Source of the DNA: a virus
Virus record (IMG/VR): IMGVR_UViG_3300005294_000069
Span: 1-26,463 of that record
Length of the DNA: 26,463 nucleotides
Direction: 5' to 3' (one strand)
Below are positions 1,457 through 26,396 of the stretch, piece by piece (position 1 is the stretch's first letter; each line of letters opens with the position of its first letter). The notes under the pieces were generated by a model that did not search any database, was not told the origin of the DNA, and was given only the letters and a program-made list of their open reading frames with translations. The position numbers and the translations under genes are program-made.

Positions 1457-4095
1457 GCTCCGTTCCAGTGTCCCATATTCCCGAAGCCGGAGACTTTCTT
1501 CTCCGTTGAGAACTCCTTCGAGAGCCGCTCTCCTCGAGCACAGTCCCTCGAATACTCGAACGCAACGAAGTACTTATCGCGTAAATCCCAGGTAGACGGC
1601 TCTCCGACAATCCGGTTGACGTCTCCAACATCCGTCGTCCCTTCCGCACTCGGACCGCCGATGCAATCCGAAACGACGAGCGCTTCGTCTTTGTCCGGCG
1701 AATCCTGCCAGAGAATCCCGTCGAGATTCCCTCCGGCCGCATGCCACCAATCCGGCTCTCCGCCTCCGCCGTCATGCTGATAGTGCGGCCAACCAGTGAT
1801 CCGCTCAGGCGGGAAGTGACAGAACACGAGCCGATCGGAGCCAACGATCGATCGAATGTGCTTGAGGAGTCGATGATTGGCGTCTCCGTTCCAGGTCCAC
1901 CAATTCGAGTAATTCGCGTTGATCTGCGGGAACTCCCAACCGTTCACGAACATCCGGATACGAGGGACGAGATCGGGAAGATGAGCGGAGAGCCAGGACT
2001 TGGCCCACTCCTCCGAGAAGCCTTCTCCGTCCCACACTTGATCGGTAATGCAAAAGAACGCGACCACGAAGCCTTGAGCTTGTACGCGATCGATGAGCTC
2101 GAGGAATGCCGGCCAGCGGTCTCCGGAGAAGTCGAATGAGGGATTCGAGCCGTAGGCGCCCCAAGCGGCAAATGGTAGATGTGTCTGTCCTCGTTCCCTC
2201 ATCCACGCGAGATATTGATCCTGTTTCTCCTGGCTCCATCCAGGGAACATAAATGCCATCTCGAAGCCGGGAGCGGCCAAAAATTCCGACTTCCAATTGA
2301 GTGCCGCCTCGGTCGTTGGCAATCCGCCTGAGAGCGGAGGAGCAATCGGCTCCGGGAGGCTCTCCGCCTCGATGCCTTTCTCGAGCGTAAACGAGCTCCA
2401 ATCGTCGATCCGATCGCCGTTGACCGAGACGCCTCCGCCTCCGCCGTCAACCGTCCACAGGTAGCCGTGCGCGCCCTTGATTGCGTACCGTCCGTCTGAC
2501 TGCTCGAGGAGATTGAACCGCTCCCACTCGCCAACACTCGAGCGGTTTGCCATGAGAGAGCCGGTAGTGATATCGGCCGAGAGGTATTGTCCGTTCCAGG
2601 AGCGGAGCGCGATCGGACCGTCCTCGAGCGGCTCCACAATGAACGACTCCCAAATACCGGGAGCTCCCGGCCGAGTCGCGTTGACTTCTTGTCCTCCGCC
2701 GTTTTCAGCGCAGAACCAAAAGCCGTTGACGGTCCGGAAGGCGACCGTCTCGATCATCTCGGTATCATCGTCGGCCGTAATGATGCGCTTTTGTCCGGTC
2801 TCGACTTTGCCTCCCGGCCCAATGAACCTAGCCTTGATCTCGAACTCTCCAGGAGTTGTGAGCTCGTAGGTATGATCCGGATCGGAGGCAGGATTTTTCG
2901 CATCGACAGCAAGAGCGCCTCCATTGGGTCCGATGAGCCACTCGACGGAATCGATCGGGCCGGAGCCGGCTTCTTTCTTCCACTTCGCTTTGACCTTGAA
3001 TGGCACCGTGCCGACTGTCGGGAGGTAGCTTTCGATCGTGCCTTTCGGTTTGGCCGGCATAGGAGGCTCCGGAGGAATCGGATCGGGAGGTATAGGTTCG
3101 GGAGGTATAGGTTCGGGAGGTATAGGAGGCTCTGTCTCGTCCGGATCGACAACGAGACCGAGTGTGAGACCTGAGACATTGATCGAGAGAATCGCGAGCT
3201 CGCCGAGTGCGCTGCCGCCGGCCACGAGCAGCCGTCCGTCTATCGGCGATTGGCAGCAATCGAACTCGGCAAAGCCGATCGGGAGTTCCACGGTTGCTAC
3301 TTCGTCCGGAGCCGCGCCGAGCTCGCGAATCAGGAGGATCGGCCGGTCGGAGGTTGGATAGTTCGAAGCCGTCAGCACATACCGGACGGAGCCGAGATCG
3401 ACAACTCGAGGGATGCCCTCGACTCGCCAGGGCGTACACGTCACGTCGTACGCTTCTCCGTCTCCTGGAGAGAGGACTCCGGCCGGTCCGTAATAACCAA
3501 CCCCGACGATGCCGTCCGGATGTTTGGCCCAAAATTGAGGATACTGCGGCAGAGAGCCGGACTCCGAGGAGACAATCCAGCGGCTTTGAGAGGGATTCCA
3601 CCGATACCATTCGAGCCGCATGCCGCCGATGTCTCGAGCTGTGACGAGCCAGTCTCCGGCAAGCTGAGACGCGGCTCCGTAGACTCCCGTTTCGACATAA
3701 GCCGCGGTCTCGAGCGTTCCCGCTGCAAGCCTCAGTCCCTTCGAGAGCCAGGACGACCAGCGGCCGCGGCCGGCATCGAACTCGTTGCCGCAGACAAGGG
3801 ACTCATCGAGCGGCCGGCTCGAGACGCTCAAGGTATCGCCGATCGGACACGTCCAGAGTTGCGCCGTATCCGGTCCGGTTGACCGCTGCCACACCAGAGA
3901 CCGATTGTCGAGAAAGCGGAGCGTCCGGCTCGGAGTTGTCGCAACGACCGAGATGCCATGCTGAGGATTGATGAGCCTAAGCGTCTCATTCCCGCAACAC
4001 ACGTACCCTGTCGCCGGCTCGAGCCGCGGGAACCAGCCATCGAGGAACGGAGCAATCCAACTCTCGAGCGCCGAGCGCGGAGCTCTTTTGCTCAT
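1453..4095 (-). CDS. Multidomain tail fibre / receptor-binding protein with glycosidase-like C-terminus (880 aa)
   Basis: This is a likely host-recognition protein at the distal tail. Residues 1-315 look like beta-propeller or WD-like sheets with many Trp/Gly turns. Residues 322-346 are a proline hinge of PPEPI-type repeats. Residues 350-440 resemble a PKD/Ig-like fold (VGTVPFKVKA...TTPGEFEIKA). Residues 447-575 resemble a fascin-like beta-trefoil with repeated 'W-G-Y-L' strands. Residues 595-880 resemble a TIM-barrel glycoside hydrolase or phage carbohydrate-binding domain (FMFPGWSQE, NGWEF at 718-722, GILWQ near 793-797). W720/E721 are candidates for catalytic or sugar-binding residues, but catalysis is not shown. 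Its ATG overlaps the stop codon of the membrane gene upstream (ATGA). It is the last gene of the minus-strand operon. Fold assignments are by eye and need structure prediction. Confidence 0.85.
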   Translation of the reverse strand: MSKRAPRSALESWIAPFLDGWFPRLEPATGYVCCGNETLRLINPQHGISVVATTPSRTLRFLDNRSLVWQRSTGPDTAQLWTCPIGDTLSVSSRPLDESLVCGNEFDAGRGRWSSWLSKGLRLAAGTLETAAYVETGVYGAASQLAGDWLVTARDIGGMRLEWYRWNPSQSRWIVSSESGSLPQYPQFWAKHPDGIVGVGYYGPAGVLSPGDGEAYDVTCTPWRVEGIPRVVDLGSVRYVLTASNYPTSDRPILLIRELGAAPDEVATVELPIGFAEFDCCQSPIDGRLLVAGGSALGELAILSINVSGLTLGLVVDPDETEPPIPPEPIPPEPIPPDPIPPEPPMPAKPKGTIESYLPTVGTVPFKVKAKWKKEAGSGPIDSVEWLIGPNGGALAVDAKNPASDPDHTYELTTPGEFEIKARFIGPGGKVETGQKRIITADDDTEMIETVAFRTVNGFWFCAENGGGQEVNATRPGAPGIWESFIVEPLEDGPIALRSWNGQYLSADITTGSLMANRSSVGEWERFNLLEQSDGRYAIKGAHGYLWTVDGGGGGVSVNGDRIDDWSSFTLEKGIEAESLPEPIAPPLSGGLPTTEAALNWKSEFLAAPGFEMAFMFPGWSQEKQDQYLAWMRERGQTHLPFAAWGAYGSNPSFDFSGDRWPAFLELIDRVQAQGFVVAFFCITDQVWDGEGFSEEWAKSWLSAHLPDLVPRIRMFVNGWEFPQINANYSNWWTWNGDANHRLLKHIRSIVGSDRLVFCHFPPERITGWPHYQHDGGGGEPDWWHAAGGNLDGILWQDSPDKDEALVVSDCIGGPSAEGTTDVGDVNRIVGEPSTWDLRDKYFVAFEYSRDCARGERLSKEFSTEKKVSGFGNMGHWNGA
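3073..3127 (-). repeat. 15-bp tandem repeat encoding a proline hinge
   Basis: Three to four copies of a 15-bp unit (plus-strand core GGTTCGGGAGGTATA, first copy diverged) encode successive PIPPE/PIPPD pentapeptides in the 880-aa fibre. The copies are nearly identical at DNA level, which points to recent expansion by slippage. The product should be a stiff, extended polyproline linker between the N-terminal and the PKD-like domains. Confidence 0.75.
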
Positions 4096-23931: not shown

Positions 23932-24651
23932 TCACAAATCACTCGCAATCAACAATCGCGGAATCTCGGTTGCGAATCTCCGAGCGGCAATCTCGCAATA
24001 GCGCTCCTCGATCTCGCATCCAACGGCTTTGCGTCCCTCGATCGCGGCCGCAATCAACGTCGAGCCACTGCCGGCAAACGGATCATAAACAGTCTCACCT
24101 ATTACCGAGGAGCTTTCGATCATCTGGCGGAGGATCTCGATCGGCTTCTCTGTCGGATGATTAACGATTCCAGTGGCATTCGCCCGAACTGATCGGAGGA
24201 TTGAACCACGGCGCAATCGTGCCGTCAGATTGCCTCTCCCTTTCCCCGGTTCGCTCGTTGGCGGAATGTGAACGGCAAACGTGATCGGCTCATGTTGCGG
24301 AGCCCAGGGTGAGCTGAGATCTCCGAGTCCAAGCAATTCCTTATCCCAGATAAGCTCACAATGTCCGATTAATGGAAGGGACGTGAGATCAATACGGCCG
24401 AACACGTACACATGCCGTTTGACCTTGAGTCCGGCGATCGCGAGCTTGAGCCGCTCGACGATCGCCGCTCGATCGTCAGTGCTTCGGCCGTCTCCGGCAA
24501 TATCGCCCCATAGCGTCCTGGATTCATAAGCCGAGGCGTACTCGACTCCGTACGGAGGATCTGTCACGAGGAGATCGCACTCGATCGACAAGTCGATACA
24601 GTCTCCATGATAGAGACGGATTCCATCAGCGTCGTAATAGAAACGGCTCAT
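23932..24651 (-). CDS. DNA methyltransferase, beta class N4/N6 type (239 aa)
   Basis: This transfers a methyl group from S-adenosylmethionine to adenine N6 or cytosine N4. Motif IV DPPY is at residues 31-34 and the SAM-binding motif DPFAGSGST at 190-198, preceded by HPTEKP (165-170). Catalytic motif before SAM motif makes it beta class. The target-recognition region lies between (about 60-160) and is short. No restriction endonuclease is next to it, so it is an orphan, probably protecting phage DNA from host restriction or marking DNA. The start overlaps the stop of the Cys/winged-helix gene (ATGA), and the stop lies 12 bp before the next gene. Confidence 0.93.
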   Translation of the reverse strand: MSRFYYDADGIRLYHGDCIDLSIECDLLVTDPPYGVEYASAYESRTLWGDIAGDGRSTDDRAAIVERLKLAIAGLKVKRHVYVFGRIDLTSLPLIGHCELIWDKELLGLGDLSSPWAPQHEPITFAVHIPPTSEPGKGRGNLTARLRRGSILRSVRANATGIVNHPTEKPIEILRQMIESSSVIGETVYDPFAGSGSTLIAAAIEGRKAVGCEIEERYCEIAARRFATEIPRLLIASDL

Positions 24652-25010
24652 TGTCGAGGCTCGACAACTCGGTAAAAGAACAATCCCGATCGATCCTGAG
24701 CTCGAATCCGCTCCACCGTATGTCCTCCGAACTTCTCCTTACGGAGATCACGGAGCCGCGCCGATACCGAGGCTTCAGGATCTCCGGTCCGCTCGGCAAT
24801 CTCCCGGAGTGAAAACCAGGAGCCGGATTGCATGACGGTCCAGACTCGTTTGGTCTGAGCATTCAATCGCGCTCGATCGTGCTCCGGCTCATAGGTCTCT
24901 CCGTCGTAGTCCGGCTCCTCGGCTTCTCGAGCTCCCTGCCTCCCGCAGCAATACCTGTAGTGCTCCTCCTCATCGGCATTGCCTCCGCAAAAGAGACAGA
25001 CATTCTCCAT
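24648..25010 (-). CDS. Cys-motif plus winged-helix DNA-binding protein (120 aa)
   Basis: Residues 5-22 hold C-x2-C...CC (CLFCGGNADEEEHYRYCC), a likely zinc knuckle. Residues 52-118 fit a winged helix-turn-helix: 'TKRVWTVMQSGSWFSLREIAERTGDPEASVSARLRDLRKEKFGG' contains the recognition helix (SVSARLRDLR), followed by a wing (RAQDRSGLFFYRVV). It is probably a DNA-binding regulator. Its ribosome-binding site, GAGGAG seven bases before the ATG, lies within the last unit of the NNNTG array, so array and gene are physically linked. The stop overlaps the methyltransferase start. Confidence 0.88.
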   Translation of the reverse strand: MENVCLFCGGNADEEEHYRYCCGRQGAREAEEPDYDGETYEPEHDRARLNAQTKRVWTVMQSGSWFSLREIAERTGDPEASVSARLRDLRKEKFGGHTVERIRAQDRSGLFFYRVVEPRQ

Positions 25011-25409
25011 CGTTCACTCCTCGCCGTCACGCCACAGCATTCCAGATTCACGTCACATCTCGCCGTCACTACACTGCACACCACCGCACCCCACGGCAGA
25101 ACTCGCCGCCACGCCAGTACAGACCACCACGCTTCACGGCACGTCACATCACTTCTCGCCGTCACGACACATCACTTCACCACAGCTCACGGCACTGCAC
25201 TTCTCGCCGTCACACCAGCGCAGGACATCCCACGGCACAGCGGCTCACCACTCGCCGTCACGACACTACATCGCACGACATACTCACCGCAGCGCACCTC
25301 AGGCCATCCCAGAACTCGCCGTCACAACACATCACGACAACTCAGTGCACCCCACTTCTCGCCGTCACAGCACGGCATAACAGCGCATTACGGCACTTCT
25401 CGCCGTCAC
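25011..25409 (-). repeat. Pentamer array (NNNTG)n with ACGGCGAG punctuation
   Basis: The only gene-free stretch over 300 bp in the window. On the minus strand it parses into eight blocks of 5-nt words, 60 of 63 ending in TG; the word before TG ends in G in 40 cases, C in 12, A in 7, T in 1. Each block ends in the octamer ACGGCGAG, always preceded by GTG (11-mer GTGACGGCGAG; one variant GTGGCGGCGAG). The 11-mers lie at 25399-25409, 25358-25368, 25315-25325, 25251-25261, 25203-25213, 25155-25165, 25102-25112 (variant), 25059-25069 and 25020-25030. Blocks hold 7, 7, 11, 8, 8, 9, 7 and 6 words. The exceptions are a 2-nt shortened word and two TG-to-CG changes; two further words are 6-mers that keep their TG. 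Plus-strand ORFs across it are artefacts of the CANNN rhythm. The first octamer contains the stop of the upstream gene; the last supplies part of the next gene's ribosome-binding site. Confidence 0.9.
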
Positions 25410-25792
25410 GTCTGATCGTCAGTCTCTCCGCGAACGAATGCGCCATCAGTAACGGCCGGCTCGATGCCAAGTCCAATCGTCGATCGCAAGAGCGGCGATC
25501 GAGGGACAGGTATTCTCCGATCGCGGCCGAACTTCGCGACGAGGCTCCAGTATTTGAGCTCGATCTCGGCCGCTCGCCACAAGCCCTTAATCGACATGTT
25601 CATTTGCTCGGCTTGTTTCCCTGTCAAGACACCTTGATCGACGGCATCAAAGACTTGTTCACTCTTTCTGTGTATTGCCTCGACTGTCCGAATCTCTGGA
25701 GCTTCCGGCCGCAACACTGATCGATTCTGCAAGCGGCTCGACTGTGTATGCGTACCGTCCTTCTCCGTCACCGCGCTCTCCTGCATAGCCAT
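25406..25792 (-). CDS. Hypothetical helical protein (128 aa)
   Basis: The ATG at 25792 is chosen because GGAGG lies exactly five bases upstream; upstream TTG/ATG (25810/25804) lack this. Residues 1-45 are polar and probably disordered. Residues 48-95 look like a helical unit (HRKSEQVFDAVDQGVLTGKQAEQMNMSIKGLWRAAEIELKYWSLVAKFG in outline) similar in style to phage proteins of unknown function. The C-terminus is Pro/Arg-rich then acidic. The first 134 bases overlap the C-terminal coding region of the 245-aa gene in another frame. The TGA stop falls inside the first 11-mer of the array. No family recognised. Confidence 0.7.
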   Translation of the reverse strand: MAMQESAVTEKDGTHTQSSRLQNRSVLRPEAPEIRTVEAIHRKSEQVFDAVDQGVLTGKQAEQMNMSIKGLWRAAEIELKYWSLVAKFGRDRRIPVPRSPLLRSTIGLGIEPAVTDGAFVRGETDDQT

Positions 25793-26396
25793 GTACACCT
25801 CCATACTCAAACAGGGTTTGTAAGTCGCTCAGAGAGAATGAGGAGCCGAGCACTTGCACATCGAACACGAGACTTGCGCCGTTGACGTATTCGATATTCT
25901 TGAGAAACGAGAGTGATTGTCCTCGGACCGTGCCGCGGCAGGCTTTATCGAAGGAGCCGTCCGAGACTTGAATACGATCGCCGTCTTTGAGGATCGGAAT
26001 CCAGTATGGAGACTGCGGCAGATAGACGCCATTGATGCAACGGACGGCGTAGCTTTTCAGTCCTTCGATCTTGCCGACATACAAACTCGAGATCTGCCGA
26101 GCGCAGTCCTTCATGTGCGCTCGAATCGTTCCGGCTCTCATGACGAGATCGCCGTTGAACCGTTGAAAGACAAGCATCGAATGTTCGGAATCGTCCGAGA
26201 GCGCTCCCTCGACGGTTGTTAGTACCTCCTCGTTGATCTCGTCGATGCTCCTGGCTCCGGCCGGACGTGCTGTCGGCCGTCTCGATTCGAGCCACGGCTT
26301 GATCAGGACAGGATCGGCAGGGACCGAGCCGCATAACTTCGTCAGAAAGTCCCAACGTACGCGGTAGCGAGTCCACAACGGTTTGACTTTCGACAT
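25659..26396 (-). CDS. Unrecognised 245-aa protein with Gly-rich loop
   Basis: The start is well defined by GGGAGGA four bases before ATG. Mixed alpha/beta sequence. Notable segments are 'MLVFQRFNGDLVMRAGTIRAHMKDCARQI' (about 74-102), 'GVYLPQSPYWIPIL' (about 123-136) and 'LQTLFEYGGVHGYAGERGDGEGRYAYTVEP' (192-221 in outline). The 'GG..GyaGeRGdGeGRY' loop resembles Gly-rich loops of RAMP-like folds and of a group of unannotated phage proteins, but this is a weak, memory-based resemblance. The C-terminal 30 residues are Ser-rich and overlap the next gene. It is the first complete gene of the minus-strand block in this window; role unknown. Confidence 0.8.
   Translation of the reverse strand: MSKVKPLWTRYRVRWDFLTKLCGSVPADPVLIKPWLESRRPTARPAGARSIDEINEEVLTTVEGALSDDSEHSMLVFQRFNGDLVMRAGTIRAHMKDCARQISSLYVGKIEGLKSYAVRCINGVYLPQSPYWIPILKDGDRIQVSDGSFDKACRGTVRGQSLSFLKNIEYVNGASLVFDVQVLGSSFSLSDLQTLFEYGGVHGYAGERGDGEGRYAYTVEPLAESISVAAGSSRDSDSRGNTQKE

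Follow-up and report, generated by a model that had tools for sequence, protein, structure and literature searches.

What kind of element is an intergenic stretch of phage DNA in which TG recurs every 5 nt while letters in between vary? The stretch lies on the minus strand of the 26,463-nt viral sequence analyzed here over its full length (the window), a fragment of a tailed phage with terminase, portal, and capsid genes. The initial annotation had described eight pentamer blocks and nine boundary copies at 25011–25409. Parsing of the minus strand confirmed this architecture and corrected its extent to about 25015–25411 (Table 1). Eight of the nine boundary octamers are ACGGCGAG, each within an exact GTGACGGCGAG, and the ninth is GCGGCGAG. 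The blocks are 33, 35, 56, 40, 40, 45, 35, and 31 nt long, giving units of 41, 43, 64, 48, 48, 53, 43, and 39 nt when the octamer is included. The 63 pentamers of the array follow the form NN-[G/C/A]-[T/C]-G, with G at position 5 in 63/63, T at position 4 in 61/63, and G at position 3 in 42/63; position 1 is A17/T16/C17/G13 and position 2 is A15/G17/T16/C15. The three off-register blocks carry insertions of 1 or 3 nt, where indels of 1 to 2 nt had been proposed.

Table 1. Features of the array locus and nearby predicted target sites. On the minus strand, the higher coordinate is the first base; guide and target functions are predicted.
Feature	Position	Strand	Basis
Putative guide array, 8 NN-STG blocks and 9 GNCGAG boundaries	25015–25411	−	Parse, TG lag-5 test, recurrence in ~40 viral contigs; co-directional with vipr
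Guide block 1, register break = 3-nt insertion	25366–25398	−	Parse
Guide block 2: AA GG CA AG TC AT TT	25323–25357	−	Parse
Guide block 3: TT GG GC AG CG CG (+1 nt) GT TC CG TA TC	25259–25314	−	Parse
Guide block 4: TG AG CT CC GG TC CG GT	25211–25250	−	Parse, target scan
Guide block 5: AA CA CC AG TG AA AT TC	25163–25202	−	Parse, target scan
Guide block 6: AA AT AC CC AA TG GT TA GC	25110–25154	−	Parse, target scan
Guide block 7: TT CC GG CG GT CA TA	25067–25101	−	Parse
Guide block 8, 1-nt insertion	25028–25058	−	Parse
Boundary octamer 1, ACGGCGAG	25399–25406	−	Sequence
Other boundary octamers	25358–25365, 25315–25322, 25251–25258, 25203–25210, 25155–25162, 25102–25109 (GCGGCGAG), 25059–25066, 25020–25027	−	Sequence
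vipr-like RAMP gene, 245 aa, G-loop EYGGVHGYAGERGDGEGRY	25659–26396	−	Family alignment, AF2 model, Cas7/Csm3 fold matches, array neighbor in relatives
Small accessory ORF, vap candidate, between vipr and array	25406–25810	−	Homologs in ~half of related loci
Downstream neighbor, possible winged-helix protein	24648–25010	−	Subthreshold matches; starts at array end
Predicted target site of L076 guide 1, within window vipr G-loop codons	25765–25793	−	19/20, 1-nt skip = wobble
Predicted target site of L013 guide 13, antisense, VTDPPYGV motif of DNA methyltransferase gene	24545–24567	+	16/16

The autocorrelation of TG positions, suggested earlier as a check, bore out the periodicity: 48 of the 75 TGs recur at lag 5, compared to a mean of 13.1 and a maximum of 24 in dinucleotide shuffles (n = 2000), and the lag-5 count is at most 6 in any 400-nt stretch elsewhere in the window. 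The array is flanked by the accessory ORF and the downstream neighbor, with the vipr-like gene upstream, all on one strand. The TGA stop of the accessory ORF is inside the first boundary word GTGACGGCGAG and so within the array. Open frames cross the array, yet the boundary word sits in differing frames because block lengths vary by steps of 5, and a coding repeat was rejected. The view that satellites, canonical CRISPR arrays, and iterons do not account for the array was likewise upheld. A short proline-rich coding repeat (PPEPI) is present elsewhere in the window, at 3064–3126, within an 880–amino acid ORF. In a search of 14 loci against Rfam, neither hammerhead nor other known RNAs were found at gathering score.

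No close DNA relatives were found among GenBank phages. Pattern scans detected the same array architecture, with other N letters, in ~40 viral contigs; it was present in unrelated contigs, and the broader of the patterns yielded 40 stretches of viral DNA. Across 39 arrays (2866 pentamers), the information per pentamer position is 0.02, 0.00, 0.17, 1.29, and 1.87 bits. The pentamer had been written as NNNTG; positions 1 and 2 carry no information, and position 3 is biased. The octamer is conserved in the window, as originally described, but the consensus over the 39 arrays is NN-G-N-CGAG: the related arrays fix only G-N-CGAG, preceded by the “AC” dinucleotide, of which the first base varies. 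Blocks mostly contain 5 to 8 pentamers over the 39 arrays and up to 11 in the window, and arrays hold up to about two dozen blocks. Since the relatives keep the register with different N letters, rather than having unrelated sequence or a lost register, the proposal that TG spacing is selected while letters vary is supported.

In one related array (L031:8243–8569), there are paired block duplications, with one duplicate deviating at N positions only. Block duplications such as those in L031 fit a functionless variable tandem repeat growing by slippage. This origin is strongly disfavored and extremely improbable, given that all four bases are used equally at NN while position 5 is ~99% G across many unrelated phages, and given the linkage to a RAMP gene and the target matches described below.

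We refer to ORF 25659–26396 as vipr, after the VIPR system considered below. A vipr homolog adjoins 34 of the 40 nonredundant arrays and is on the array strand in 34/34 cases. The remaining six comprise four arrays cut at the sequence edge (L055, L071, L080, and L086) and two with no such neighbor (L014 and L033). Most of these loci were located by DNA pattern alone; all five viral homologs of the window ORF have an array immediately downstream. The order is reversed in L061, L067, and L081, where vipr is downstream of the array. When a genome collection was scanned with the array pattern, four contigs were retrieved, one of which (L053, a Dehalococcoidia MAG) has both array and vipr; a TG-rich tandem repeat downstream of two ribosomal protein–like genes in an Actinomycetaceae MAG (L052:1220–1488) was judged a false positive. 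The same collection scanned with the vipr protein alignment gave no matches.

By sequence, Vipr matched no family above threshold, with weak subthreshold matches to Csm4 and Cas6. For the window protein, the best PDB matches of the AlphaFold2 model (pLDDT of 75.6) are Cas7/Csm3 RAMPs: type VII Cas7 (8yhd, Z of 13.1) and Csm3 (6nbt, Z of 12.0, 3.1 Å over 149 residues). The family alignment reveals a conserved KDC motif in addition to a glycine-rich loop, YGGxHG...R..G.G.Y. From the fold matches and this loop, the window Vipr is predicted to be a RAMP (RRM core, G-loop). The small vap-like gene beside vipr is absent from about half of related loci, and a search with peptide patterns revealed no homologs of the small ORF. 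Its product has a helical model of low confidence (pLDDT of 64.7) with no family match above threshold. On the other side of the array, ORF 24648–25010 possibly encodes a winged-helix protein, judging from subthreshold matches.

A pentamer array upstream of a putative regulator could also be a TRAP-like RNA site, where UG triplets separated by 2 nt are bound by a ring-shaped protein that regulates the helix-turn-helix gene downstream. TRAP sites have the form (G/U)AG-NN, and both the period and the triplet-plus-2 layout of the array resemble them. We consider such a site highly improbable, as the model of the neighboring gene product matches RAMPs, single arrays hold up to about two dozen blocks, and target information resides in the NN letters. 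What the computations establish is that the array accompanies a RAMP-fold gene on the same strand and combines a constant triplet (mostly GTG or CTG) with a free dinucleotide.

The information in the dinucleotides was assessed by searching with the array guides, with arrays masked, at skips of 0 to 3 nt between dinucleotides and with reversed-order controls. Strong matches outside arrays were obtained under the 1-nt skip only. The sole skip-3 match below 1e-3, a 16/16 match of a window guide, was the array matching itself through incomplete masking. The guide L076_1 (CA GG TA GC GG GA CG AG GA GG) matches the codons of H-G-Y-A-G-E-R-S-D-G in vipr of other phages, with 20/20 letters in three of them and 22/22 when the boundary dinucleotide is included. 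It has 0 to 3 mismatches in 21 of 47 records, compared to none for the reversed pattern, and 3 mismatches to vipr of its own phage. When the whole viral collection was scanned exactly with guide L013_2, three matches were returned, each of them antisense within a major capsid gene, at NNLLAIRAE; all three are in wobble phase and two are 20/20. With both guides, the skip falls on the wobble position of the codon. Statistics are weaker for the methyltransferase match of L013_13, for L013_7 at the end of the capsid gene matched by L013_2, for L082_7 in a prohead protease–like region of two phages, and for L074_6 in a capsid region. Overall, strong targets were found for 3 of 96 long guides in the 1.3 Mb searched, with many matches coming from L076_1 alone, compared to 0 to 1 strong guides in 40 controls with shuffled dinucleotide order. 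The sister-array dinucleotides, with one target base skipped, thus spell conserved vipr, major capsid, and methyltransferase codons of other phages, and the 1-nt-skip reading at the codon wobble position holds for these arrays. Guides 4, 5, and 6 of the window had 3, 18, and 0 exact matches in the viral collection, with no convincing target among them: the guide 5 matches show no common location, and most are out of phase; of the guide 4 matches, one from an AT-rich phage (L140) is in wobble phase and was ascribed to chance.

These results also bear on the proposal that the double helix is read, with a multimer contacting TG/CA at each half helical turn of a protein-binding array such as a centromere-like, packaging, or replication site. 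The strict 5-nt spacing and the intergenic location near terminase genes fit such a site, but it accounts neither for the strand shared with the RAMP gene in 34/34 cases nor for gapped wobble-phase matches to rival genes. Moreover, dinucleotides are kept between phages while constant letters drift: arrays L044 and L083, from different phages, have a common guide in which 14/14 N letters are identical and three constant letters differ. Also consistent with a code, L082 contains two guides with the first eight dinucleotides in common. We regard a DNA-binding array as very improbable. The evidence favors reading at the RNA level, because the array strand is that of the RAMP gene and the dinucleotides act as a guide code. 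The multimeric reader proposed at the outset is compatible with RAMP oligomers.

The statement that no element of this kind had been described is superseded by a preprint of April 2026 on VIPR (PMC13142463, bioRxiv 2026.04.26.720920). VIPR is presented there as an ancestral RAMP with vap genes, the products of which are predicted to interact with DNA, and vrRNAs composed of GGY/NN pentamers. The vrRNAs read DNA through NN, with one base skipped, mostly at the codon wobble position, and act against rival phages and satellites (PMC13142463). The preprint has seven types, some with “a related consensus” and “staggered arrays,” and type II guides of 9 to 16 repeats that carry an invariable structured tail at the 3′ end (PMC13142463).

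Our inspection of the type II locus of Escherichia phage SUSP1 confirmed the GGY/NN repeats. The SUSP1 and window loci share a phage-encoded single small RAMP, a small neighbor gene, and an intergenic pentamer-repeat RNA (predicted in the window) whose constant triplets alternate with hypervariable NN. With the sister arrays, SUSP1 shares 1-nt-skip decoding, wobble-phase targets, and guides directed at rival phages as well as at other vipr genes. In contrast, the triplet is GGY in SUSP1 and STG here; SUSP1 guides have 9 to 16 pentamers and a structured 3′ tail, whereas blocks here mostly have 5 to 8, are arranged head to tail, and are separated by the GNCGAG boundary. Sequence similarity between the two Vipr proteins is negligible. 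A long structured 3′ tail was not found in the guides described here, which show the GNCGAG boundary only. Because of the short blocks and this boundary, we did not assign the array to VIPR type II. The STG triplet marks a VIPR variant and is compatible with membership; the tail-less STG form may be among the seven types, since the preprint cites a related consensus and staggered arrays (PMC13142463).

Two other guide systems are similar in part. Class 1 CRISPR-Cas (type III/VII Cas7, Csm3) shares the RAMP fold (fold only), an array of short guides, and a short fixed handle. It has conserved direct repeats around free spacers, whereas here only GNCGAG is fixed, the rest is pentamer-periodic, and the guide is gapped every 5 nt; in an unsystematic look at the window, other cas genes were not noticed. 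TIGR-Tas likewise has tandem guide arrays borne by phage. It differs from the window array in that Tas uses a domain of the Nop5 type and the dual spacers are contiguous.

Taken together, fold, anatomy, and code point to VIPR, and the window array very probably encodes the guide RNAs of a VIPR system of a phage, in which Vipr would silence competitors. By analogy, the array would be transcribed together with vipr, and the transcript would be cut or would end near GNCGAG, producing short guides of 5 to 11 pentamers each, with one block corresponding to one guide. Vipr subunits may align along this RNA, each of them holding the constant triplet of one pentamer and displaying its dinucleotide. 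Such a complex would bind double-stranded DNA of the competitor without cutting it and block its transcription. As the predicted target phages come from metagenomes, competition between phages is presumed.

Tentatively, and with the odds somewhat against it, the locus could represent an undescribed VIPR subtype with an STG/NN-reading RAMP, short head-to-tail guides, bare GNCGAG as the sole processing signal, and a vipr-versus-vipr guide aimed at rival G-loop codons. The STG arrays, which come from metagenomic phages, independently support the gapped 1-nt-skip code of a single VIPR preprint (PMC13142463) and suggest that the skip rule would be a property of the RAMP rather than of the GGY letters. 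The compact array form offers testable processing. The vipr-directed guide is aimed at the one motif that is hard for rival vipr genes to alter, and synonymous changes would provide no escape because the skip falls on the wobble base.

Toward one end of the genome record of Microcystis phage Mae-JY09 (L050:2962–3708), a distant vipr-like gene was detected, followed by CC-rich noncoding DNA; no clear 5-nt array was seen in this phage, and the locus may represent a further VIPR form that uses a different constant motif. In another contig (L012:14–1636), the ORF of the terminase large subunit appears to contain an intein-like insert (GCFTGDTRIALLDG ... FVHNS).
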